This document shows positions 3,684 to 63,807 of a DNA stretch of 64,000 nucleotides, piece by piece. Origin of the DNA: Isotricha intestinalis (taxonomy: Eukaryota; Ciliophora; Litostomatea; Vestibuliferida; Isotrichidae); contig JAJJLU010003509.1 in assembly GCA_023807065.1 (NCBI GenBank), forward strand, positions 1 to 64,000, in the 5' to 3' direction. The position numbers and the translations under genes are program-made. A model generated the notes under the pieces. That model did not search any database. It saw nothing but the letters and a program-made list of their open reading frames with translations, and was not told where the DNA came from. Each line of letters opens with the position of its first letter. Positions within the stretch are counted from its first letter, which is position 1.

Positions 3684-3755
3684 CTCCGAGCCGGAGAATT
3701 GAACTCCGGTCACCTGCGTGACAGGCAGGTATACTAACCACTATACTAGCTCGGA
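3684..3755 (-). tRNA. tRNA-Asp (GUC)
   Basis: This is a 72-nt cloverleaf on the minus strand. The 7-bp acceptor stem is TCCGAGC/GCTCGGA with discriminator G, as expected for Asp. The anticodon stem is CCTGC/GCAGG around the loop CTGTCAC, giving anticodon GTC. The T-stem is CCGGA/TCCGG around GTTCAAT, which also forms the Pol III B box. A run of nine T follows as a Pol III terminator. There is no tRNA intron. A base-for-base identical copy lies at 44593-44664. The high G+C stands out sharply from the surroundings. Confidence 0.97.
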
Positions 3756-4374: not shown

Positions 4375-4442
4375 TTTATTTATTTATATTAAATAACATA
4401 AAATATTTTATTAATAATTATAATTAGAAAAAAGAATAAATT

Positions 4443-5708
4443 ATGTCAAATTTTAAAAGAAAAGATGTAAAAGAAATGACTTTAAAAGAATTAGAAGATT
4501 ATATTAAACAAAATTCTTTAAAAAATTTAAAAATGAATTTTTCAATTGAAAAAAATAAAAATGAAGAAAATGATAACTTTTCAAATTCTTTAAATTATAA
4601 TTATCTTGATAATAAAAATCTTCCAGATAAAAATTTATTTGAAAGTAAAGATGAAGAAATACAAAAATTATTAAAAGAAAATAATGAATTAAAATTTGAT
4701 ATGAAACAATTATTTTTTTTTACTGATCAAAATAAAAATGAATTAGAAATTAAAATTAAAGAATTATCTAATGAAAATTTTAAGTTAAAATTAGAAATAA
4801 ATGATTTAAAAAATAAATTAATTTTACAAGGAAATATTTTAACTAACACAGAAGTTGATAAACATGAAATAATAAATGAAAAAAAAATTATGAAAGATAA
4901 ATATGATAATGAAATAAGAGAATTAAATTCACAATTAAATAATTATAAATCAAGATTAAATCATTTAAATTTTGAATATCAAAATCTTTTAGAAAATTTT
5001 CATAAATTAAAACAAGAAATAATTTTTCAAAATAGTAAAATAAAAAATTCATTTTTAAATAAAGAAGAAAGAAAAGAATCTTTAGAAAATGAATATATAA
5101 AGAATAATAAACAATTAAATAATAATAATAACATCATTAACAACAAGAATATAAATCAACAAAATAATATTAATGAAGAAAAGAATATAAACAAAAATGA
5201 AAATAATAATTCAAATAATTCTCAAATATTAAAAAAAAATAAATATTCAAAATTAAAAAGATCAAAAACTTTTAATGAAAAGAATAAAATAAATAAATCA
5301 AATTCAAATATTAAGAATAAGTTAAAAAATAAAATAAATAATACAATAAAATCAAAAAAAAAAATAATTAGAAAAAATATATCAAACATAGATAAAAATT
5401 TATTAATTGATTTAAATAATCCTTTAAAAAGAAGATTTATAACAAATGAAGAACAAAAAAATTCAATTCAATATATTGAAGAAGAAATTTTTTCTCTTGA
5501 AAGAAAAGTTGCTGAATTAAATGTTTCTTATCAATCTTTTTTACAAAAATTAAAAGAACTTCCTAATAATAATTTTAAAGAATCTAATGATTTGAAAAAT
5601 ACTTTAAAATATCTTCAAGATACAATTGAAGATAAAAATAAAAAATTAAAAGAATTAAAAGTTAAACAACAACAATTTTTAATTCAATCTGCAATGGAAA
5701 TTAATTAA
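4443..5708 (+). CDS. coiled-coil protein, Asn/Lys-rich, unknown function
   Basis: The frame encodes 421 residues with no intron needed. The N-terminus starts with a short charged helix (MTLKELEDYIKQ). Predicted coiled coil runs from about residue 65 to 210 with regular Leu/Ile spacing. A basic Asn/Lys low-complexity linker follows at ~225-320, and then a second coiled coil at ~343-415 ending in QQQFLIQSAMEIN. The layout resembles cytoskeletal or basal-body scaffold proteins, but I see no family signature. It is divergent from the gene ending at 4374 and shares a 68-bp promoter interval with it. Confidence 0.7.
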   Translation: MSNFKRKDVKEMTLKELEDYIKQNSLKNLKMNFSIEKNKNEENDNFSNSLNYNYLDNKNLPDKNLFESKDEEIQKLLKENNELKFDMKQLFFFTDQNKNELEIKIKELSNENFKLKLEINDLKNKLILQGNILTNTEVDKHEIINEKKIMKDKYDNEIRELNSQLNNYKSRLNHLNFEYQNLLENFHKLKQEIIFQNSKIKNSFLNKEERKESLENEYIKNNKQLNNNNNIINNKNINQQNNINEEKNINKNENNNSNNSQILKKNKYSKLKRSKTFNEKNKINKSNSNIKNKLKNKINNTIKSKKKIIRKNISNIDKNLLIDLNNPLKRRFITNEEQKNSIQYIEEEIFSLERKVAELNVSYQSFLQKLKELPNNNFKESNDLKNTLKYLQDTIEDKNKKLKELKVKQQQFLIQSAMEIN

Positions 5709-10732: not shown

Positions 10733-11110
10733 TTTTTTAATTTTTTTTTTGAGAAATAATTTATTTCATAAATTTACTTTAGATTATTTGTTTTTGAAAA
10801 AGTTTTTTTTAGTATCTTTAGTTTGTTATAAATAATGATTTAATTGCAATATTAATATATTCTTCTTTTTTTTAACTTTTTTTATTTAATTTTTAAAGAA
10901 CAAAGAATTTTCTAATTTATTATTTATAAAATAATTATCTACTTTTTAAAAAGACAAATAATTGTTTTTTATTTTTATATATTTATAAATAATAATTAAA
11001 TTTTCTTATAAATAAATTTCATTTTCATAAGATGAAAAAATATTATTATATTATTCCTATAAGTTATTTAATTCAACCACTCCCATTTATATACATATAT
11101 ATATAATTAT
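10733..11110. other. AT-rich intergenic region
   Basis: This lies upstream of the PP2C-like gene and downstream of the otubain-RING gene, both on the minus strand. No coding feature is seen. Confidence 0.5.
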
Positions 11111-15782: not shown

Positions 15783-16253
15783 ATGAGTAGAATCCAATTC
15801 AAAACAGAGAAAGATTTCAAATTTATTCTTCGTCTCTTTAACTCTAACATCGATGGAAAGCAGAAAATTCCATATGCACTTCGTAAAATAAAGGGAATAG
15901 GAAGGCGTTTTGCACATGCAGTGACAATAAAAGCAGGATTGGATCCAAGTCGTAGAGCAGGAGAATTAAATGATAAAGAAATAGAACAAATAATAGATGT
16001 AGTTTCAAATCCATTAAATCATCATTTACCTCAATGGATACTTAATAGGAAGAAAGATACTAAAGATGGTACTTATACTCAACAAGTTGCTAATGGTTGG
16101 GATACTAAAATTAGAGAAGATTTAGAAAGAATGAAAAAAATGAAATTACATAAAGGATTAAGACATTATTTTGGATTGAAAGTTAGAGGACAACATACTT
16201 GCTCAACTGGAAGAAGAGGAAAAACTGTTGGTGTTTCTAGAACCAAAGGATAA
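15783..16253 (+). CDS. RPS18: 40S ribosomal protein S18 (uS13)
   Basis: The frame encodes 156 residues, the usual length for eukaryotic S18. Conserved blocks are FILRLFNSNIDG near the N-terminus, IKGIGRRFAH (~38-47), RAGELND (~58-64), a block resembling 'ANG.D.K.REDLER.KK', then HKGLRHYFGLKVRGQHT and GRRGKTVGVS near the C-terminus. uS13 sits at the head of the 40S subunit, where it contacts P-site tRNA and the 60S bridge. No intron. The first half uses less AT-rich codons than the neighbours, as expected for a highly expressed gene. Confidence 0.98.
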   Translation: MSRIQFKTEKDFKFILRLFNSNIDGKQKIPYALRKIKGIGRRFAHAVTIKAGLDPSRRAGELNDKEIEQIIDVVSNPLNHHLPQWILNRKKDTKDGTYTQQVANGWDTKIREDLERMKKMKLHKGLRHYFGLKVRGQHTCSTGRRGKTVGVSRTKG

Positions 16254-22137: not shown

Positions 22138-23979
22138 ATGGAATGTGATATTTGCCTGACTGAATGGGATCCAAATAAAAGAATTCCTCGTTTATTATCA
22201 TGTGGACATACATTTTGTCAGGAATGTTTAAAGCAAATGTTTAATAAATGTAAAAAAGAGAAAAAGAAATTTCAATGTCCAACATGTAATACAATTCAAG
22301 ATAATTTATATGAAGAGAAAGATATTTTATCATTAATAAAAAATTACAATTTACTTCAAATAGCAGAAAAAATAGAAGAGAGAAAAACAACAAATAGAGG
22401 AACAAATGCATCTATACAAAACATACTTCCAATCAATTTAAATGACAGAGAATCAATAACATCGAAAAATAATAATATAATCAATCCACGAAATTCTCAA
22501 AAATTTTTTTTTGATATTAATAGAAAATGTGCAAAACATAATTTAGTTATTCATTCTTATGCGGCAGGAACAAATATATTATTTTGTGATAAATGTATTG
22601 AAGAAACTAAAATGTCTACTTTACCTTTACCTAATGCTATTAAAGATTTAAGAAGAAGAGTTGATTCTTCTCAATTAAAAGCTTGTATTACTAAAAATCA
22701 AATTAGTCAATTAAAAAGATTTTTTGAAAGTTATTTAATTGAATTTGAAAAAGAAAATTCTTCAAAAATTGAAGAATTATTTTCTTATTTTAATAAAATC
22801 ATCGAATATTTTCATAATAGTGCAAAACAACTTTTATCTCAATGTGTAAGTGAACAAAAATTACATATTTCTTCTTATTTGGAAGAAATGAAAAAATTAA
22901 GTTTTCAATTAACAAATATAGAAAAAGATTTAAGTGAAATGTTAAATAATAAAGATAATTCATTTTTATTACATAATATAGATAAAATTCGAAAAATAGA
23001 AAATCGAATGATAAATTTTATAAATTATGATTTAGAATTTGATTTATTATCAATGAAGATAGGATTTAATGAGAAAGAGAAGGAAAATTTATTATCATCA
23101 ATTCAAAAAAGTTTTTATACTCAAGTAGAATTTTTTGAAATTCAAAATAAATTACCTTCAATAAGGCAAATATTAAAAGTAGATGAAAGTTGGCCATGTA
23201 TATGTGATGAAGTGAATAATTCATTAAATGAAGTAAAATGTAGTTCTTGTGGTTTATTTAGAAGATATGAAACTTTAGGTCATAATACTATTAATTATTA
23301 TGATGATATTGATACTAGTTTAAATTTAAATAATTCTATTATTAGTAATATTGAAAGAGAATTAGATGTTATTAAACAAATTAAAGAAGAAGAATCTAAT
23401 GAATTTAAATATTTAATACAAATCAACAATAGAAAAAATAAATCTTTCTATGCTATTGATTTAGATTGGTTTAATTCCTGGAAAAATTTTGTTCAAAAAA
23501 ATAAAGAAATTCCTCCTGGTCCTATTACTAATAATAATTTAATTAATTTAAATAAATCTAATGGAAAATATGAAGTTAAAAATAAAATGATTAAAAATAA
23601 AGATTTTATTATTGTTGAAGATGATGTTTGGGATTTTTTCTTCTTAAATTTTAATGGAGGACCTTGTATTGAGTTAATTGATGATAAACATGTTAAAATT
23701 GAAGATGCTGTAGTTAAAATTAGTGGAAGTTTTTATACTAGTTATACTCAAATTAAAGAAGAATTTATTGATGAAGATGAAAAAGATGATAATTTAGAAA
23801 ATGAATATGAAAATGATGATAATAAATATTTGAAGAAAAATTCCAATCATAATAAAAATTCGAATAAAAACTCTAATAATAAAAGTAATTATGATCCTGA
23901 TGATACTATTGAAAATGATAATGATATTTATGATGAAAGTGATTTGCCTTCGAAGTTAATTAATAAATATGGAAAATAA
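22138..23979 (+). CDS. RING, B-box, RanBP2 zinc finger and DUSP-domain protein (probable E3)
   Basis: The frame encodes 613 residues. A C3HC4 RING lies at residues 4-51 (CDIC, LSCGHTFCQEC, CPTC). A B-box-like Cys/His cluster follows at ~130-155 (KCAKHN, FCDKC), and then a coiled coil at ~180-330. A RanBP2-like finger lies near 352-375 (WPCIC, then VKCSSCGLFRR). Residues ~425-560 match a DUSP domain: FYAIDLDWFNSWKNFV, then PPGPITNNNLI, then NFNGGPCIEL, the last resembling the 'YGGGP.I' end of DUSPs. DUSP modules usually sit in ubiquitin-specific proteases, where they bind substrates. Here there is no USP catalytic core. The acidic Asn/Asp tail is low complexity. A ubiquitin ligase is the likely function. 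Confidence 0.85.
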   Translation: MECDICLTEWDPNKRIPRLLSCGHTFCQECLKQMFNKCKKEKKKFQCPTCNTIQDNLYEEKDILSLIKNYNLLQIAEKIEERKTTNRGTNASIQNILPINLNDRESITSKNNNIINPRNSQKFFFDINRKCAKHNLVIHSYAAGTNILFCDKCIEETKMSTLPLPNAIKDLRRRVDSSQLKACITKNQISQLKRFFESYLIEFEKENSSKIEELFSYFNKIIEYFHNSAKQLLSQCVSEQKLHISSYLEEMKKLSFQLTNIEKDLSEMLNNKDNSFLLHNIDKIRKIENRMINFINYDLEFDLLSMKIGFNEKEKENLLSSIQKSFYTQVEFFEIQNKLPSIRQILKVDESWPCICDEVNNSLNEVKCSSCGLFRRYETLGHNTINYYDDIDTSLNLNNSIISNIERELDVIKQIKEEESNEFKYLIQINNRKNKSFYAIDLDWFNSWKNFVQKNKEIPPGPITNNNLINLNKSNGKYEVKNKMIKNKDFIIVEDDVWDFFFLNFNGGPCIELIDDKHVKIEDAVVKISGSFYTSYTQIKEEFIDEDEKDDNLENEYENDDNKYLKKNSNHNKNSNKNSNNKSNYDPDDTIENDNDIYDESDLPSKLINKYGK

Positions 23980-41832: not shown

Positions 41833-42678
41833 TTATTGTTCTTGTTGGTTTTCTTTTATGTTTTTACTTAATTTTTCTATTTTTGAATCTTTTTCTTGTA
41901 ATTCTTTTTGAAGTCTTTGTAATTTCTCTTCTAAATAACCTAATTTAATAGAATTATTTATTTCTAAAACTGGACTTAAAGTTTTATTATTGATTTGTTT
42001 AAATATATTTTCTAATTCTTTTGGTATTTTAGAACCATATTTTCTTTTAAATTCATTTAAAGCTCTAAAAATATTAATTTTAAATTCATTTTCTTTAATA
42101 ATTTCATTTTGTAATTTATTATTATCAATTAATATTTTTTTTAACTCATTTTCCATTTGAAATAATTTAGTAATAGATTCAGTTTTTGCCATTTCAACTG
42201 TATGATAATTATAATTTTGAGTTTGTAATTCATAATTAACTTTATCAAAATTTTCTTTTAAAGATTTATATTCTTCTTGAAGTTTTTTTCTCAAAGCTTT
42301 AAATTCAACATTATCTTTTTTCATTTTTTCAAATTCTGCTTTATCAATTAATTCATATTTTTCATTTCCTTTTTCACTATCATTAACTTTTTGATTATTA
42401 AATAATTCTAAATTATCATCAATTAAATTTAAAGTAATATGTTGAACACTTGCATTATCAATAACATCCTTTAAAGACAATTTTTCATTTGAACTTATTT
42501 CATCTGAAGGTGGTTGTTGTTGAGTTGCATTTAAATGTGATTTATTAAATTTATTTGTGTTTTTAAAAAATGAATTTCTTTGTGTTTTTGATAATCTAGA
42601 TCTTTCGGGTGATGAAACTGAATCATTTTTCGAATTTAATAAATTTTTAGTAGATTTTCTTTTTGTTGATTCTGCCAT
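41833..42678 (-). CDS. coiled-coil protein, unknown function
   Basis: The frame encodes 281 residues. The first ~90 residues are Ser/Lys/Asn-rich with several SP or SxxS sites, so phosphorylation is plausible. From ~100 to the C-terminus, heptad-spaced Leu/Ile/Met run almost without break (KFEKMKKDN..., KKLQEEYKSLKENFDKV, KLQRLQKELQEKDSKIEKL). A short break near 195-225 contains KRKYGSKIPKEL. I recognise no family. Its start is 59 bp from the divergent WD40 gene. Confidence 0.7.
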   Translation of the reverse strand: MAESTKRKSTKNLLNSKNDSVSSPERSRLSKTQRNSFFKNTNKFNKSHLNATQQQPPSDEISSNEKLSLKDVIDNASVQHITLNLIDDNLELFNNQKVNDSEKGNEKYELIDKAEFEKMKKDNVEFKALRKKLQEEYKSLKENFDKVNYELQTQNYNYHTVEMAKTESITKLFQMENELKKILIDNNKLQNEIIKENEFKINIFRALNEFKRKYGSKIPKELENIFKQINNKTLSPVLEINNSIKLGYLEEKLQRLQKELQEKDSKIEKLSKNIKENQQEQ

Positions 42679-42737: not shown

Positions 42738-43637
42738 ATGAATAAAAATTTGAAGTTGATTCATATTATTAAAGATAATAATATTAATGAGAATATTATT
42801 ACTTCTATTGGGATTTTTCCTTCTGGAAATTTTATTTGTGTTTCTTCTGATAAATCCATTAAAATTTACAATGAAAATTTTATACTTATTGAATATATAA
42901 ATAATTCTCATAATGATAAAATTACTTTTGTTGACGTTAAAGATGAAAATAATTTTGTGACTTGTTCTTGTGATAAAAATATTAAAACTTGGATTAAAAG
43001 AGGAAATAAATTTGAAGAAAATAAAATAATAAGAAATGCACATAAATTACAAATTAATAAAGTTTTATTTTATGGAAAAAATATTATATCTTGTTCAAAT
43101 GATAATTTAATAAAAGTATGGGAAGAAAATAATAATAATAATTATCAATCAAATATAATTTTTAAACATTTAAATAGTGTATGTGCTATTTTATTATTAA
43201 ATGAGAAAAATATATTAGTTTCTTCTGGATTAGATGGAACTAAAATTTGGAATTTAAATAATTGTAATTTTATTTTTTCAATAGATGAAACTTGGTGTGC
43301 TTCTTGGAATGGTATATGTAAAATAAATAATGATGAAATTTTGGTACAAGAAAAAGTTGATTTTTCATTTAAAATTATTTCAATTTCTCAAAGAAAAGTT
43401 ATTAAAGCAATTGAATGTAATCATATTTGTTTTGGATTAATATCTATTGAAGATAAAGGAATTATTATAATTGGAGATGAGAGTATTATAAGAATTTTTA
43501 ATTCTAAAAATTATAATTTGATGAAAATAATAACTAATGCTCATGAAAAATATATTATAGGATTTCAACAATTAAAAAATGGATTAATTATTTCTTATTC
43601 ATATGATAAAACTTTAAAAATATGGTCATATGAATAA
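42738..43637 (+). CDS. WD40-repeat protein
   Basis: The frame encodes 299 residues, about one seven-bladed propeller. Repeats end in WD-like dipeptides: SVSSDKSIKIYNE, TCSCDKNIKTWIK, SCSNDNLIKVWEE, SSGLDGTKIWNL, GDESIIRIFNS and SYSYDKTLKIWS. GH-type or NAH starts precede several (NSHNDKITFVD, NAHKLQINKVL, NAHEKYIIGFQ). No other domain is attached, so it is probably a scaffold subunit. The partner cannot be inferred. Confidence 0.88.
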   Translation: MNKNLKLIHIIKDNNINENIITSIGIFPSGNFICVSSDKSIKIYNENFILIEYINNSHNDKITFVDVKDENNFVTCSCDKNIKTWIKRGNKFEENKIIRNAHKLQINKVLFYGKNIISCSNDNLIKVWEENNNNNYQSNIIFKHLNSVCAILLLNEKNILVSSGLDGTKIWNLNNCNFIFSIDETWCASWNGICKINNDEILVQEKVDFSFKIISISQRKVIKAIECNHICFGLISIEDKGIIIIGDESIIRIFNSKNYNLMKIITNAHEKYIIGFQQLKNGLIISYSYDKTLKIWSYE

Positions 43638-43784: not shown

Positions 43785-44630
43785 ATGGGAAATGAAGTTT
43801 CAAAGAACACAACAAATATATCAAATTCTCCAAAGAAAATAATAAAAGCTCAACTTCCTCCAATAAAAGGAATAGAGCATAGAAAGAGTCAATATTACAA
43901 TCACAATCAATTACATCCTCGTCCTTCGGGGATAAACATTCCAAATAGGAAAGGAGAGAAGAAGAAAAGAATAATAATAACAGCAAAAGATGTAAAAATT
44001 TCAACAACAGAATATGATGTATTAGAAGTAATAAAAAAAAATAATCATGAAGATATTGATCATAATTTAATAGAAAAATGTATATTGAATCATTTTTTTA
44101 TGAGAAATTTAGAGAAAGAAGCAAGGAATGAAATAATAAGAGAAATGACTCTTTGTAGAGTAAAAGCAAAAGATATTGTTTTTAAACAAGGTACAATAGG
44201 TAATTTTTTTTATATTATAAAAGAAGGTGATCTTGATTTAATTATTGATAATAAAAAAGTTAAAACACTTTCTAAAGGAAATTCTTTTGGTGAATTAGCT
44301 TTAATTAATGGTGCTTCAAGAAGTGGAACTGTTAAATCTATTAATGGAAGTTTACTTTGGTGTATGGAAAGAAAAAATTTTAAGAAAATTATTGATCATA
44401 TTAATTCTCAAAATTATATGGAAAATATTAAATTTATTAATGATATTAATTTCTTTTCTGGTTTAAGTAACAATTTAAAAACTTTACTTTCTAAAAATAT
44501 TATTAAAGTTTATTTTGAACCTAAAGATATTATTGTTAAAGAAGGTGATTTAGCAAGTTGTTTATATATTATTAAAGAAGGAGAAGTAAAAACTCCGAGC
44601 CGGAGAATTGAACTCCGGTCACCTGCGTGA
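43785..44630 (+). pseudogene. PKG-like cyclic-nucleotide-binding protein, truncated by a tRNA-Asp gene
   Basis: The frame encodes 281 residues. MGNEVSKN offers Gly2 for myristoylation. A first cNMP-binding domain lies at ~100-205 with the phosphate-binding cassette FGELALINGASRSGTV, including the conserved Glu and Arg, followed by LWCMERKNF as in alveolate PKGs. A second domain starts at ~216 and reaches YIIKEGEVK, where the sequence runs into the antisense of a tRNA gene. The last 12 residues and the stop are tRNA sequence. The rest of the second domain, any further ones and the kinase domain are absent from the next 340 bp and from the window. The donor-like GTAAAAA at 44586-44592 could be a splice site, but no downstream exon is visible. 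It is therefore a fragment, or an assembly join. Confidence 0.75.
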
Positions 44631-44664
44631 CAGGCAGGTATACTAACCACTATACTAGCTCGGA
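44593..44664 (-). tRNA. tRNA-Asp (GUC), second identical copy
   Basis: All 72 bases match the copy at 3684-3755, including the discriminator G. The identity stops exactly at the mature tRNA ends apart from a shared short T run. The Pol III terminator here is five T. The gene lies antisense to, and overlaps, the truncated PKG frame. Nothing in the stems is mutated, so it should be functional. Confidence 0.95.
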
Positions 44665-45008
44665 TTATTAATTTTTAATTAAATTACATCAATAAGTCGA
44701 TAAACAAAGGAATAAATTTACTAAACTTATTTTATTTTATAAAGGAAATATAAAAAAAAATTGAAAATTCAAATTAAATGAAAAACTATTTTTAAATATA
44801 TATTTCAAAAAGAAAATATTTTTTACAGGAAAAAATCATAACAATTTTTTCATTTAATTTCATTGAAATGAATTTAAATGGGAATAACATTAAATATTAA
44901 ACATAAATTATAAAAATTAAATTAAAACCTAAGAAATAATAATATATAAAAAATAAAAGATTAAATAATAAAATCACAAATTATTCAATACTATTTAAAA
45001 AAACAAAA
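44665..45008. other. AT-rich sequence between tRNA-Asp and DDX6
   Basis: I searched this stretch for the missing PKG exons and see none; it contains only A/T-rich sequence and the probable DDX6 promoter. Confidence 0.5.
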
Positions 45009-46369
45009 ATGCAAACAAACGATTTTCAAAAACCAAATAATCAATCATCAGAAACTCAAAAAGATCCAAAACAAGAAATTGAGAAAGAATCTGAGAAAGA
45101 AAATATTCAAAATCAAAAAGAAGAGCCAAAATCCTTAATACGTAAAATAGATGAAAGAGTGAAAACAAAAGTAAAAAAAATATAAAATAATAATATAAAA
45201 AAAAAATTTAATAAAAATAGGATGTAACAAATACAAAAGGTCAAAATTTTGATGATTACAAATTAAAAATAGAGCTTCTAAAAGGAATATATGAGAAAGG
45301 ATATGAAAAGCCAAGTCCAGTTCAAGAAGAAGTGATTCCAATAGCATTAATGGGAAAAGATATAATAGCTAGGGCAAAGAATGGAACAGGAAAAACAGGT
45401 TCATTTGTAATTCCAATATTAGAAAAAATAAATATTAATCAAAAATATGTTCAATCACTTATATTAGTTCCAACAAGAGAATTAGCACTTCAAACATCAG
45501 CCACAATAAGAGAAATAGGTAAATATTTAAATGTTCAATGTATGATTACTACAGGAGGAACAAATTTAAAAGATGATATATATAGATTATATAATCCTGT
45601 TCAAATTCTTGTTGGAACTCCTGGAAGAGTTTTTGATTTGGCTAATAAAGGAGCTTTAGATTTAAGTAAATGTGGAATTATAGTTCTAGATGAAGCTGAT
45701 AAATTATTAAGTCAAGATTTTCACAAAGTTTTAGAAAATATTTTAAATTTTTTACCTTCCAAAAGACAAATTATGCTTTTTTCAGCAACTTTTCCTTTAA
45801 ATGTTAAAAGTTTTAAAGATAAATATTTAAAAAATGCAATTCTGAAAAATTTAATGGAAGAATTAACTTTATTAGGTATTACACAATATTATACTTATTT
45901 AGAAGAGAAATTAAAATTACATTGTTTGCATACATTATTTCAAAAATTAGAAATAAATCAAGCAATAATATTTTGTAATACAACAAAAAGAGTAGAATTA
46001 TTAGCGAAGAAAATAACAGACATGGGATTTTCATGTTATTATATTCATGCAAGAATGGAGCAAGAAGATAGAAATAGAGTATATCATGATTTTAGACATA
46101 ACGCATGTAGATGTTTAGTTTCTTCAGATTTAATGACAAGAGGTATTGATATTCCTAATGTTAATGTTGTTATTAATTTTGATTTTCCTAAAAATGCTGA
46201 AACTTATTTACATAGAATTGGAAGAAGTGGAAGATTCGGTCATTTAGGTATTTCTATTAGTTTTATCACTGATGATGACGTCAATAATTTTTATGCTATT
46301 CAAAAAGATTTAGATACTGAAATTGAAGCAATGCCACAATCTATTGATAGAAATTTATATGCTATTTAA
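45009..46369 (+). CDS. DDX6: DEAD-box RNA helicase DDX6/Dhh1
   Basis: Exon 1 (45009-45170, 54 codons) and exon 2 (45221-46369) join across a 50-nt intron to give 436 residues. Exon 1 encodes a polar lead ending [19 protein letters not shown]. Helicase motifs appear in order: Q-motif around [46 protein letters not shown] and [10 protein letters not shown]. The phrases [10 protein letters not shown] and [15 protein letters not shown] are specific to the DDX6 group rather than eIF4A. DDX6 represses translation and drives decapping in P-bodies with Pat1, EDC3 and CCR4-NOT. The start codon is set by exon 1; without it the frame lacks the Q-motif lead. Confidence 0.95.
45171..45220 (+). other. 50-nt intron, DDX6 gene
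   Basis: The donor is GTAAAA and the acceptor AATAG. It has several stops in all frames. Removal joins KTK to [10 protein letters not shown] and keeps frame. Confidence 0.8.
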
Positions 46370-49728: not shown

Positions 49729-49890
49729 TTATAAAAAATTTTTTTCATCTATTTTACGTATTAAACTTTTTGGCTCTTCTTTTTGACTTTGATATAATTC
49801 TTGTTGATTGTCTTTTGGGGTATCTTGTTGAGGGACTTTTGGAATTACTGATAAAGGATTGTTTTGTTTTTGATCTTCGTTGGTTTGCAT
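49729..49890 (-). pseudogene. duplicate of DDX6 exon 1 (fragment)
   Basis: The minus strand encodes 53 residues starting MQTNEDQKQNN and containing [15 protein letters not shown] near the end. The real DDX6 exon 1 begins [11 protein letters not shown] and contains [15 protein letters not shown]. The match covers both ends of the exon, at the same length of 54 codons, and the middle has diverged. After the conserved end the sequence reaches TAA, no clean splice donor remains, and no helicase domain follows. I take it as a broken partial copy of DDX6. It could also be the lead exon of a lost paralogue. Confidence 0.75.
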
Positions 49891-51020
49891 TTTTTTTTTA
49901 AATATAATGATATTTTAGTGTTTTTATTATTTATCTTTTTTTTTATATATAATTTTAATTTCTTGAATTTTTTTATATTAATTTTTAAATATATTTATTT
50001 AAAAATCTCCACATTTTTAGAGGATGTTTATTATTTATTCATTTACTTTTATCTTATCTAAAATTATTAATGCATTTAAAAAAAGTTTATTTTTTTTGAG
50101 TATTTTAATAAAAGAATTTTCTTATCATTAATCCATACATTTCTTTTTTTTGTCTATTCTTTTAAATTCAGATTTTATTATTTATTATTAGGTTAATTAA
50201 TATATATATTTAATCAATTAATTTATTTAAAAAAGGTATATTCACAATTATTTGGAATTAGAAGTTTTATCAATTCCAATAACTTATAATCTTTTGATAA
50301 TAATATCATAAGAAAGATTAAAAGTAGAAAAATATTATGTTTAATATGATAATTTTACTATTTATTAAATAACCTAATTTAAATTTTAAGTTATCATCTT
50401 TTGGATATTGAAAGATAGTAATTTCTTTATTTTATTAATTTCATAAAAACCGGTTCAATTTTATAAAAGTTTTAATTACTTTAAATTCAAAAATTTCTAT
50501 CATTAATTTGATATATTTGTTGTTTCTTTTAAATTAATCTTTATAAGATAACTTAAAGATATATTCTATTATAAGTTCAATCTCATTTATAATATAACTA
50601 TTTATGATATCACCTTTTTACTTTTCATCAATTAAAAAAGGAATTCACAAAAAAATCTATATTCCCTATATTATTTATTATGTTCCAAAATTTCCTTTTA
50701 CAATCGATAAGTTTTCTTTTTCTTTAGTTATATTATCATGATTATAATATTAATAGTTATTATTAAATCATTGTTATAATTATAATCATTAGTAGTATAA
50801 AATTAACATTTTTACTATAAAATTGGTTATAAACTAATTTTAAAAAGGAGTATATGATTATTTCTAATAAAATAAATAATAAATTGAATTTAAATATAAT
50901 ATTAAGAAATTACTTTTATAAAAAACAAAAATTTTTAAAAAATATTTTTTTTCAATATATATTTCATATAAATAATATAATTATATTTCAAAATTCCTAT
51001 ACTAATATAAAATTTTTTTC
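49891..51020. other. gene-poor AT-rich region
   Basis: No gene I can support. Minus-strand stretches near 50280-50420 stay open for about 30 codons with mixed composition, but frames change repeatedly and I recognise nothing. It may hold decayed sequence. Confidence 0.4.
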
Positions 51021-58918: not shown

Positions 58919-61900
58919 TTATTCAGATTTATCATTTTTTAATAAGGATGCAATACCTTGTATAACTTCTAAAATATTTATAATTTGTAATAATTTTTTA
59001 TATATTAAATTTGAAAAAATTGTTTCAAGTGATTCCATTTTAATGCTCACTTCTTGAACAAATTCAAAATCATTTTTCAAATTAAGAATGTTTGAAAAAA
59101 ATTTTCCTTTTTGATTATCATCAAATTTAATGATAAATTCAAAAGAATAATTATCAAGATCATATTCCTCTAAAGAAATTTTTGTATAAAATGGTTTGAT
59201 AGAATTTATAATAATATTCAAATAATTTAAGCAACCATAATCATTATTAAAATTTTTACTTATTTTATCATAACCCGAAATTTCATTTGCTAATTTTTTT
59301 TCTAATTCTTCATAATTAATATCTATATTATTATTATTAATTTTATTTTCTTTTTTAAATTTAATTTTTAAAATATAACCAGCTGAATGCTCAATTTTCA
59401 ATTGTTCAGAATTTCCTATAAAATCTATTTTTCCTGAATCTAACCAACCAATTCTATCACATAAAATTTCAGCTTCTTCCATTGAACTAGGAATTAATAT
59501 CATATTAAATTTATGTTCCAAAGATAAATCAAATAAATTATTAAACATCATTCTTCTATTCTCAGGATCAATTCCAGTGGTTGGTTCATCTAATAATAAT
59601 AATTTAGGTTTATTCATCAAAGTAATAGCAAAATATAATTTTCTTTTATTTCCTTGTGATAAATTTTCAAAATTTGTATTTAAATAATTTTCTAATCCAA
59701 ATTTTTTAGCAAAATGTTCAATATTAATTGAAACTTTTTTTAAATGTTTAAAATAATTTAAAGTTTGTTCTACTGTTAATTTGTTAAAAAGTTTGATTTC
59801 TTGCGGACAATATCCTACTTTATTCCTTATTATATCAATATTATCATTAATATTTGAACCAAATAAATATATTTCACCTGAATCATATTTTAATTCTCTA
59901 ATTATTAATTTTAAAATTGTTGTTTTTCCTGAACCATTGTTTCCAATTAAACCAAATTTTTCATCTTCATCTAATGATAAATTTAAATCTTGTAATATCT
60001 TATTCTCTTTCTTTTTACAACATTCTTTTGTTATGAACTTTTTAGATAAAGAAATTATTTTAATTGGAGTGTTTATTTCTTTTAAATCATTTTTTTCTTT
60101 TTCTAAAGGAATTAAACCCTTTTCATCATTGAAATTATTATCTATTAAATTTTGCTTAAGTGAATCACTATTTTCATTTTTATCAATAACAATTTCCTCT
60201 ATTTTTGTTTTATTTTCAAATTCTTTTTCTTTCTTTCCTATTAACTTAAATTCTTTTATAATAAAAAAAATTCCATATAAAAAAAATTGAAGAATAAAAA
60301 CCAGAAAATTCCTTTTTATTTTTGAATTATCAAAATATTCTGTTTTATATATTATTCTATACAACAAAGTAATAGGAGTAAAATCATATCCTGATAAAAA
60401 TGTTTGATTAAAAATATTTATTAATTCAAATAAATACATAAAAAAATATGGGACAATATAAATAATAAAAAAAATCACCCTATGGTGTACATTTATAAAT
60501 AAACTTAAAAAATAAGAAAAAGTGGACATTGCTATTAAATATCCAATTATTAAAATTAAAAAATTATAATCAGATCCTAAAATGAACAATGAAAAGAAAA
60601 TGAAAAATATAACAATAGTATTTTTAATTAAATCAGAAATGAAAATTCCAAGCCAATAATTAACCATACTATTTCCATTTAAATACAATAAATATTTTAA
60701 ATGTCTAACTCTTTCTTTGATAGGAGTCTCAATTAAAAATGCAGAAATTAATATTATATAAGTAAACATAAAAGAAAAAAATGAACTATCAAGACGATCT
60801 ATATTTTTATTATTTTTATAACTACTTCCTGAATTTATAATTAAGTTAAATTCTTTTTCAGTTATTATATTAATTAACATATTCATTGATGCTTGATAAT
60901 AATCAGGACTATAAGATTGATATAAATTATATATTTTTATATCATTTAAATCTTTATGAAAATAAATTATATTTTTCTCATTTCTTAATGATGATTGATT
61001 ATAAATATAATGCATAAATGATGAAATATTTGGAAAATTAATTTCACAAGTTTTAAACTCAATTTGGGATTTATTAATTTTATTATAATACTTTGAACTA
61101 GAAATATATTCTGATTCATTTGAAAAAATATAAATTTTATTTTTATTAAGTAATTCTTCAACATTAACATACTGGAAATTTTTAGAAGAGTAGTGTAATG
61201 AAATTAGATAAAACAGAAATAGTATAAAAAATATATATAATATCAGCAAACTTTTTAATGAAGAAAGAATATTTTTTTTTATATTTTCTTTTAATTGAGC
61301 AAAAAATGAAAATTTATTATTTTCAATTTGTTCAATGTCTTCTAAATCAATGTTTTTTTTTTCTAAATTTAATTTTTTTGATTTATCCCTATTAATAATA
61401 TTAATAAATATATCTTCAAGTGAAGTTGTTGAAATTGTATAATTAGTAATATCAAAATCTTTTTTTGATTCTTCTATATATTCAAAAAGATCATTTATTG
61501 CTTTTTTGTCTTTTGTGCTAAAATTAATTTGAATTAAAGAATTTGATTTTATACGAATAAAAAAAGTAGGAATAATTTCTTTTAATCCATTTAATAATTG
61601 TTGTCTATTTTCTTCATTAAATTTTGATTTAATAAAAAAGCTAATATTAAAACCATTTGGAAATTTTTCTTTTAAAAAATAAGAACTACCACTACATATT
61701 AATTTCCCATCTTTTATAATTCCAATTTTATCACCAAACAATTCAGCTTCTTCTAATAAATGAGTCGTTAAAATAATTATTTTATCTTTTTTATATTTTT
61801 TTAAAAATTTCCATAATTCTTTTCTTGAATTACGATCAAAACCTATTGTTGGTTCATCTAAAAGAATAACTCTTTTATTTCCAATTAAAGATAAAATAAT

Positions 61901-63733
61901 ATTTAATTTAAATTTATCTCCAAGTGATAAACTATTATAGTTAGCTTTTAAATCTAATTTAATATCATTAATAAATAAAATGATATTTTCATCAATATTT
62001 TCTTCTCCTCTTATATTTAAAAATAATTTTATATGTTCAATCACAGTAAAATTTTCAAACAAATATTCTTGTTGAGAAAATCCAATTTTTTTTAATAAAG
62101 TCATTTTGTTTTCAATGAATGATTCACCATCAATCAATATATCTCCTCCATCAGGATTTTCAATTCCTGAAAGTAATTTCATTAAAGTAGTTTTTCCAAC
62201 TCCATTTTCTCCTAATAAACAAAATATTTCTCCAGGGAAAAATATACCTGAAAAATTATCGAGTACTTTTAAATCATTATATTTTTTTGTTAAATTTTTT
62301 ACAATTAAACTATTATTTGATGTTTTATTGTTTTCCTCTTCTTTATTTAATTTTTCATAATAGGTTTTAGTTAAAGAATCATTTTGCTCTATATTACTAT
62401 TTTCTAAAATTGAAATAACGCCTTCTTTATTTTTTATAATTTGTTTTTTATAATTTTGAATATAAATGACTATAGTAATTGAAATTATAAATAAAAACAT
62501 CAAAATAAATGAATATGTTAAATTAAAAAAAATACTAAATTCATTAATATAATTCATTGTAAAAATTTCCCAAGAAAATTGACTTAAAGCATTTATTCGA
62601 ATTAAATGTTTTATTGTTATTAAAAGACCTATATCAGGAATAATCATTAAAAATATAATTAAACTTTTAGATAAATTATTTTCTGTGTTATAAAAAACTA
62701 TAATAGAAAGAATTATCATTGCAAATATATAATAAATTATTTCTTTTTTTTTAAAAACCAAATGCACAAATATTATTAACAAAAAACTATTGAAAAAATA
62801 TAATATAATAACAAACAAAACTATAAATGAATTTAAATTCTTAAAATACATCAAAGAATAATAAATTGTCACTAAACAAGGAATTGAATAATATAATAAA
62901 AAAACAAAAAACCATGAAATATAATATTGTTTAATTGTAATACCTTCTCTTAGAAATAATTCTTTATAATATTTACTTTTTTCATTTATAATTTGTAAAT
63001 GAAAACCGAAAAATTGCATTTGAAGGTATATTGATAATATAGAAAAAGAAGTCAGAATTGAATAATCTAAAAAATGAGTTAAATTATTAATAAATTGCCC
63101 TGATTCAATTTTTGTGTTTATTGATCTTGTTGTATAATACCTTAAAAAATTTGTTATAATTTCTTGATGTTCAGAAAAACGAATAACTTTTTTAAAGGCA
63201 TTTATTTTTTTACGGTTATCTTCTAATATATTTAATTTATGAGATGATTCTTTTATTGAATTATGTTCAAGACCTTTCATTCCAAATTTAACTTCAATTT
63301 CATTTTCTGAATCATTTTTATTTGATATTTCAATAATATAATTCATTTCTATTTTTAAATTTTCATATTCCTTTGATTTTAAATAATGAGATAATTCTTT
63401 TGTTGAATTAAAAATTTTTACTGCTTTAACTATTTTACTCTCTTTTAAAAATTGAAATAATTCATTCGTAAAATCTTTATTATTTCCTGAAATTATTCCA
63501 ATGATACCATTTACATATAATAAGTTTGATGTATTTTTTTTAAATAGAGAATACTTATATATATATTTTTCTGGGAAAAGAAGGGAATTATTAGTTTTAT
63601 AAAAATTTTCCTTTATTTCTTCACTATAATTATGAATTCTAAAAAAAAAAAAACAATAGATAAATAATACAAAGAAATTCTTATATAATTCTTTCCTGAA
63701 TTCTGATGTTCTTATTTTATAAAGAACTTTCAT
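58919..63733 (-). CDS. full-length ABCA-type ABC transporter
   Basis: The frame encodes 1604 residues arranged TMD1-NBD1-TMD2-NBD2. TMD1 has one N-terminal helix (~17-33), a lumenal loop, and a cluster of helices to ~430. NBD1 has Walker A GENGVGKTTL (~505-514), a signature-like LSLGDKFKLN and Walker B VILLDEPTIGFD (~620). TMD2 starts near 835. NBD2 has Walker A GNNGSGKTTI (~1262), signature LSQGNKRKLYFAI (~1355) and Walker B LLLLDEPTTGID (~1380). NBD1's signature lacks the usual Gly-Gly, so the two ATP sites may differ. The ABCA family moves lipids across membranes; such genes are often expanded in protists. The gene is intronless and bracketed by direct repeats. Confidence 0.93.
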   Translation of the reverse strand: MKVLYKIRTSEFRKELYKNFFVLFIYCFFFFRIHNYSEEIKENFYKTNNSLLFPEKYIYKYSLFKKNTSNLLYVNGIIGIISGNNKDFTNELFQFLKESKIVKAVKIFNSTKELSHYLKSKEYENLKIEMNYIIEISNKNDSENEIEVKFGMKGLEHNSIKESSHKLNILEDNRKKINAFKKVIRFSEHQEIITNFLRYYTTRSINTKIESGQFINNLTHFLDYSILTSFSILSIYLQMQFFGFHLQIINEKSKYYKELFLREGITIKQYYISWFFVFLLYYSIPCLVTIYYSLMYFKNLNSFIVLFVIILYFFNSFLLIIFVHLVFKKKEIIYYIFAMIILSIIVFYNTENNLSKSLIIFLMIIPDIGLLITIKHLIRINALSQFSWEIFTMNYINEFSIFFNLTYSFILMFLFIISITIVIYIQNYKKQIIKNKEGVISILENSNIEQNDSLTKTYYEKLNKEEENNKTSNNSLIVKNLTKKYNDLKVLDNFSGIFFPGEIFCLLGENGVGKTTLMKLLSGIENPDGGDILIDGESFIENKMTLLKKIGFSQQEYLFENFTVIEHIKLFLNIRGEENIDENIILFINDIKLDLKANYNSLSLGDKFKLNIILSLIGNKRVILLDEPTIGFDRNSRKELWKFLKKYKKDKIIILTTHLLEEAELFGDKIGIIKDGKLICSGSSYFLKEKFPNGFNISFFIKSKFNEENRQQLLNGLKEIIPTFFIRIKSNSLIQINFSTKDKKAINDLFEYIEESKKDFDITNYTISTTSLEDIFINIINRDKSKKLNLEKKNIDLEDIEQIENNKFSFFAQLKENIKKNILSSLKSLLILYIFFILFLFYLISLHYSSKNFQYVNVEELLNKNKIYIFSNESEYISSSKYYNKINKSQIEFKTCEINFPNISSFMHYIYNQSSLRNEKNIIYFHKDLNDIKIYNLYQSYSPDYYQASMNMLINIITEKEFNLIINSGSSYKNNKNIDRLDSSFFSFMFTYIILISAFLIETPIKERVRHLKYLLYLNGNSMVNYWLGIFISDLIKNTIVIFFIFFSLFILGSDYNFLILIIGYLIAMSTFSYFLSLFINVHHRVIFFIIYIVPYFFMYLFELINIFNQTFLSGYDFTPITLLYRIIYKTEYFDNSKIKRNFLVFILQFFLYGIFFIIKEFKLIGKKEKEFENKTKIEEIVIDKNENSDSLKQNLIDNNFNDEKGLIPLEKEKNDLKEINTPIKIISLSKKFITKECCKKKENKILQDLNLSLDEDEKFGLIGNNGSGKTTILKLIIRELKYDSGEIYLFGSNINDNIDIIRNKVGYCPQEIKLFNKLTVEQTLNYFKHLKKVSINIEHFAKKFGLENYLNTNFENLSQGNKRKLYFAITLMNKPKLLLLDEPTTGIDPENRRMMFNNLFDLSLEHKFNMILIPSSMEEAEILCDRIGWLDSGKIDFIGNSEQLKIEHSAGYILKIKFKKENKINNNNIDINYEELEKKLANEISGYDKISKNFNNDYGCLNYLNIIINSIKPFYTKISLEEYDLDNYSFEFIIKFDDNQKGKFFSNILNLKNDFEFVQEVSIKMESLETIFSNLIYKKLLQIINILEVIQGIASLLKNDKSE

Positions 63734-63807
63734 ATTTGAATAAATTATTTTAATTATTATATTATATTAAATGATTATAAACAACAATAAGAAAAAAACA
63801 ACATTTT
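63734..63807 (-). promoter_or_regulatory. probable ABCA promoter interval
   Basis: Only 74 bp separate the ABCA start codon from the repeat. It is pure A/T-rich sequence with no motif I can name; a promoter is expected here or within the repeat. Confidence 0.3.

Follow-up and report, generated by a model that had tools for sequence, protein, structure and literature searches.

A PKG reading frame that ends in a tRNA-Asp gene: most likely a fault of the assembly and not a novel gene type

Can a tRNA gene bring a protein kinase gene to its end? In the window, by which we mean the whole stretch of DNA analysed here (bases 1-64000 of the 65178 in contig C945, from an assembly of 57.3 Mb in 2153 contigs), a PKG-like stop-to-stop frame of 281 amino acids (43785-44630, plus strand) with a match to the cNMP-binding family PF00027 (E 7.3e-22, in two stretches) ends inside the antisense of a tRNA-Asp gene. 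Taken at face value, the locus suggests that a tRNA has cut the gene short, or that a chromosome broke here; if real, the break would sit exactly behind a tRNA gene. A first-pass annotation of this DNA described a frame that passes through one cNMP-binding domain into a second and then into the tRNA-Asp antisense, with the kinase half not downstream. Both statements are confirmed in the assembled sequence: past the tRNA we saw no kinase sequence in the window, and an intergenic stretch leads to a DDX6-type helicase frame. The window has 18.7% G+C and contains no N, including none at the join. The gene is named PKG after database labels and is a putative cGMP-dependent protein kinase; such enzymes combine several cNMP-binding domains with a C-terminal kinase. 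The likeness to known PKG lies in the cNMP-binding domains of the window piece and in the kinase domain of a probable further piece of the gene on another contig (C1612) and of the protein P0157, both described below; the difference is that the window frame stops inside the second cNMP domain, at the tRNA. The features of the locus are as follows.

3684..3755, minus strand: tRNA-Asp copy 1, 72/72 identical to copy 2 (Rfam, 62.2 bits)
42738..43637, plus strand: WD40-repeat gene directly upstream of PKG, member of a large family
43785..44587, plus strand: 5' part of PKG, with one complete cNMP-binding domain and the first half of the second (residues 1-268); 94% identical to the protein P0122; similarity to paralogues ends at this point
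44588..44630, plus strand: end of the chimeric PKG frame, 13 residues (269-281) and a stop, from an A-run and tRNA antisense (frame translation)
44588..44592, minus strand: T5 run directly after the tRNA, a putative Pol III terminator, common to the copy at 3684
44593..44664, minus strand: tRNA-Asp (GTC) copy 2, structurally intact (ARAGORN and Rfam, 62.2 bits)
44665..45009, no strand: tRNA 5' flank and intergenic DNA without PKG sequence
45010..46369, plus strand: DDX6/DHH1-type DEAD-box helicase gene beyond the junction (frame 45221-46366; a short upstream exon from 45010 is predicted)

An inverted, 78% identical copy of the DDX6 upstream region together with its initial coding sequence (44903-45156) lies at 49743-49994, ahead of a NIF-type phosphatase gene. 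Among the 120 DDX6 protein matches listed, those bearing organism names came mostly from ciliates and apicomplexans, plus a plant and a fish. Searches of viral_contigs and genome_contigs gave no relative with P0122 and one distant viral match (29%) with DDX6. Beyond the window, translated pieces at the contig end (C945:64346-65115) show 90-98% identity to the large gene at 58919-63766.

The junction and the relatives of its two sides

The DNA similarity to other PKG genes stops at 44587-44590 in 12 of 13 cases and at 44583 in the remaining one; with the other three tRNA-Asp genes, similarity sets in at 44588. The junction is therefore defined to within a few bases. The final 26 PKG bases, to 44587, are found exactly in C963, the nearest paralogue among the loci compared, which continues as PKG.

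On the other side of the junction, the tRNA-Asp gene has a cloverleaf, a GTC anticodon and a score above the Rfam cut-off. Searching the genome gave four tRNA-Asp genes: an identical pair in the window, and two others, on C1544 and C309, that are 97% identical. The 72/72 identity of the window copies, reported earlier, is confirmed; the copies also share the five-base terminator (77/77 once these five A/T positions are counted). Identity ending at the mature ends is common in this genome and carries little weight: four tRNA-Ile genes that were compared agree at 74/74 positions but differ in their 5' flanks, and three of them have unlike 3' flanks, the fourth having none because its contig ends one base later. 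A run of at least four T starts no more than 13 nt from the 3' end in 28 of 30 tRNA genes; of the other two, one lacks such a run and one is truncated by its contig end. The T5 of the tRNA-Asp at 44593 lies at offset 0. Twenty-seven of these 30 genes are in the 62-gene tRNA list used below; those on C1544, C309 and C933 are absent, and the list is therefore incomplete.

A swap with the other identical tRNA-Asp copy was rejected, since beyond 3755 there is no PKG by eye and no match to P0122. The tRNA-Asp genes at 3684 and on C1544 (10862-10933) each stand head to head with a related gene (4440-5705 in the window and C1544:9572-10762, 53% identical), and C309, with its tRNA-Asp at 16110-16181, carries by eye a decayed look-alike; the stretches in the window, on C1544 and on C309 are read as paralogous segments.

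The 281-residue frame, searched against about 5.8 billion proteins, had 30 matches, six of which we read through. The PKG goes on past the junction, with no tRNA or intron, in P0122, P0123 and P0124 (94%, 93% and 96% identical; 92-96%), and likewise in P0125 (55% identical); P0126 and P0128 end short of the junction, and a tRNA-derived tail occurs in none of the six. Within this genome, the comparison covered the frames of 13 out of 29 paralogous loci, and these 13 read straight through the site with no intron at this codon. The first-pass annotation had named long reads in which the PKG 5' half continues without a tRNA as the mark of an artefact, and a 5' half that continues in this way is the arrangement in the sequences of close relatives. 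Because the orthologues P0122-P0125 have coding sequence and no tRNA at this site, PKG offered no second tRNA for recombination; the idea of recombination between tRNA genes is thus contradicted, a tRNA having been found at only one of the two parental sites.

None of the compared orthologues near the window piece spans the whole gene, P0122, P0123 and P0124 ending at 491, 284 and 320 residues, respectively. Over the 268 residues, private amino-acid changes number 3 in the window piece, 8 in P0122 and 12 in P0123, and all three differ at 4 sites. A long-broken gene should show the most private changes and the window piece has the fewest, which counts against an old break. To judge by these residues, the window piece is without sign of relaxed constraint or decay.

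The missing kinase end

A search of the assembly with P0122 recovered the front part on C945 (94%), and residues 271-491 were without a match above 47%. With the full-length C963 paralogue as the query, a kinase half (PF00069, E 7e-62) was found on C1612 near the contig end, linked to the window piece via P0157 and not via joining sequence. P0157, a protein of 923 residues from a profile search (among 120 listed of 483 matches), is the best full-length match among the full-length proteins compared to the window piece (71%), to the middle of P0122 (61%) and to both C1612 pieces (69% and 71%). The runner-up full-length matches stand at about 54% (window piece), 51% (P0122 middle), 55-59% (short C1612 piece) and 55% (long C1612 piece). 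On account of this common best match, we read the window piece and the C1612 edge as the front and the back of one gene. The remainder of PKG, which the first-pass annotation had wanted sought in the genome, was therefore likely found at the C1612 edge, and an insertion with local deletion is contradicted by this survival of the kinase end on another contig.

About 218 codons of P0157 between the window piece and C1612 are absent from the assembly. The end of C1612 falls within the gene. Other contigs match the final 150 bases of C1612 at only 69-79%, and in its part of the gene the reading frame shifts about 166 nt from the contig edge. The same six residues, KIEKYS, stand where P0122 stops and where C1612 begins, a coincidence for which hard-to-assemble sequence would be one reason. 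An orphan 3' half on C219 was discarded as the partner, being a decayed gene; C1612 was preferred since its pieces match best with P0157, a comparison made for C1612 alone. A tRNA-Lys called inside the PKG of C248 was likewise discarded as a false ARAGORN hit, lying in kinase coding sequence and having a poor cloverleaf.

Misassembly, rearrangement and other explanations of the join

Judging from these sequences, the join between PKG and the tRNA is most likely a misassembly at an assembly hole (probability about 0.72), and not simply a join through an identical tRNA. The earlier suggestion of an assembly join through an identical tRNA thus survives in its first half; the identical tRNA fails as a full explanation, there being no tRNA in PKG itself. 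The locus would be an ordinary PKG whose middle stayed unassembled, C945 up to 44587 and the C1612 edge being fragments of the same gene, separated by a missing stretch of about 650 bp. There, the assembly would have joined the PKG front to the 3' edge of a real tRNA-Asp that belongs ahead of the DDX6 gene. A chimeric read or a scaffold closure are candidate origins of the join, and presumably no chromosome carries it. The support for a misassembly consists of both pieces, the missing middle, the orthologues that run through the junction and the unrelaxed constraint. By simple arithmetic (4306 contig ends in 57.3 Mb), the chance of a contig end in the remaining approximately 2 kb of the gene is about 0.15, and the presence of such an end despite this chance favours an assembly hole about six-fold. 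Moreover, at least 3 of the 62 listed tRNA genes lie within 15 nt of a contig end versus 0.07 expected (p ~5e-5), a lower bound from contig ends checked for part of the 62: two contigs, C919 and C1161, start a single base outside a tRNA, and on C1786 the contig end comes 15 nt after one. In this assembly, tRNA genes are points of weakness.

As in a chimeric contig at a gap, the gene is split over two contigs, its middle is missing and its orthologues are intact at the junction. The present case differs in being known from assembled sequence alone and in that the joined ends have no common repeat. A section of PMC5760741 describes a single-cell ciliate assembly checked for chimeras via read coverage. 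Several observations count against a misjoin. The joined ends share no repeat, so that the join must stem from some read or closing step, and no N stands there. No close orthologue is full-length, the KIEKYS coincidence counts on the same side, and the genome has real small rearrangements. The frameshift in C1612 could also be decay of a really broken gene. Should the join be a misassembly, the locus would show how a gene end that is clean but probably false can arise when the assembly of an AT-rich protist is fragmented.

The C919 contig starts one base before a tRNA-Ala, and its start (1-260) repeats sequence near its end (75629-76330) save one T (about 260 nt by eye). The contig pairs C187/C294 and C894/C924 have equal PKG and WD40 match scores, which suggests uncollapsed duplicates or alleles.

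Alternatively, the join could be a real and very recent rearrangement that left the broken PKG just 3' of the tRNA-Asp and the back of the gene on another chromosome, which we regard as fairly unlikely. The assembled sequence as it stands, the precise junction behind the T5 run and the frameshift in the C1612 part all speak for it, as do true partial copies elsewhere. A PKG on C933 (30374-33289) has a truncated copy without the 3' part at C933:36549-37397 (98.4% over 1477 bases). On C915, two identical tRNA-Lys genes (41941-42012 and 63329-63400) have 53 nt of 5' flank and the first part of the T-run in common and then diverge on both sides, being a small copied cassette. These two cases indicate that real small rearrangements exist in the genome. 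However, a real rearrangement is hard to reconcile with a window piece free of decay, with a middle that is wholly absent and with a C1612 that ends at an unassembled edge and not in new sequence. Chromosome rearrangements with a tRNA gene at the breakpoint are known from yeasts. The present locus is like them in having a tRNA exactly at the join, but here the tRNA is in one partner only, and hence the join is not tRNA-tRNA recombination. The part of PMC5433688 available to us shows no tRNA genes at breakpoints.

A more elaborate version of a real join, which we consider improbable, is that a retroelement aimed at tRNA 3' flanks opened the DNA behind the tRNA-Asp and the break was sealed to a broken PKG, such breaks driving rearrangements. 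It gains a point from six of nine reverse-transcriptase matches that lie behind a tRNA (see below), but no retroelement was seen at the PKG/tRNA junction, where PKG is antisense to the tRNA. A PKG retrocopy made by a tRNA-associated element was rejected, as it is the 3' end of PKG that is missing and the 5' end that is present.

It is very improbable that the window piece is a recent partial PKG copy whose whole parent lies on the C1612 chromosome, with the parent's front collapsed into C945; there is a like case for another PKG in C933, but no second copy above 50% identity was found, and the parent's unique middle should be assembled but is absent. Least credible of all is the earlier proposal of a tRNA in a PKG intron with lost or more distant 3' exons, for which the bases GTAAAAA at 44586-44592 could serve as the start, but which is contradicted by P0122-P0125 and the 13 paralogous frames without an intron at this codon, by the lack of PKG sequence later in the window and by the back part being on another contig.

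Reverse-transcriptase matches behind tRNA genes

Six of the nine RVT_1 matches in the genome lie 34-2517 nt downstream of a same-strand tRNA (binomial p ~1.5e-15); those on C1786 and C478 are below the Pfam curated cut-off, and the tRNA on C1458 is weak (38 bits). The remaining three (C437, C656 and C1743) have no listed tRNA on their contigs. The six are as follows.

C1458:156-866
C1423:20872-21414
C236:3587-4021
C1456:16701-16955
C1786:9647-9802
C478:4442-4675

Behind the tRNA-Lys at C915:41941-42012, a protein-like reading starts 10 nt after the tRNA. The peptide belongs to a 67-residue family found at five places (six matches, two of them overlapping in C897), for which Pfam named no family. 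Four of the five places lie 10-1486 nt behind a same-strand tRNA.

C915:42023-42223
C649:196-390
C1458:2760-2951
C897:1525-1713
C1264:20816-21007

On C1458, the peptide and the reverse-transcriptase domain are both reported in one 1150-residue frame on the same strand. Together, these positions suggest a retroelement family aimed at tRNA 3' flanks. The RVT_1 matches are alike in position to Dictyostelium TRE3, as the portion of PMC5006619 at hand describes it. Given that the organism-named DDX6 matches are mainly from ciliates and apicomplexans, this may be an independent case of tRNA-3'-flank targeting, and reverse-transcriptase sequences behind tRNA genes in what is probably an alveolate, perhaps a ciliate, may matter more than the PKG join. 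The 24-kb contig C1360 stands apart in that its tRNA flanks (10743-10943 and 22761-22962) have 37% and 45% G+C, unlike the rest, and one of them resembles a bacterial terminator; C1360 is possibly a foreign or organelle contig.
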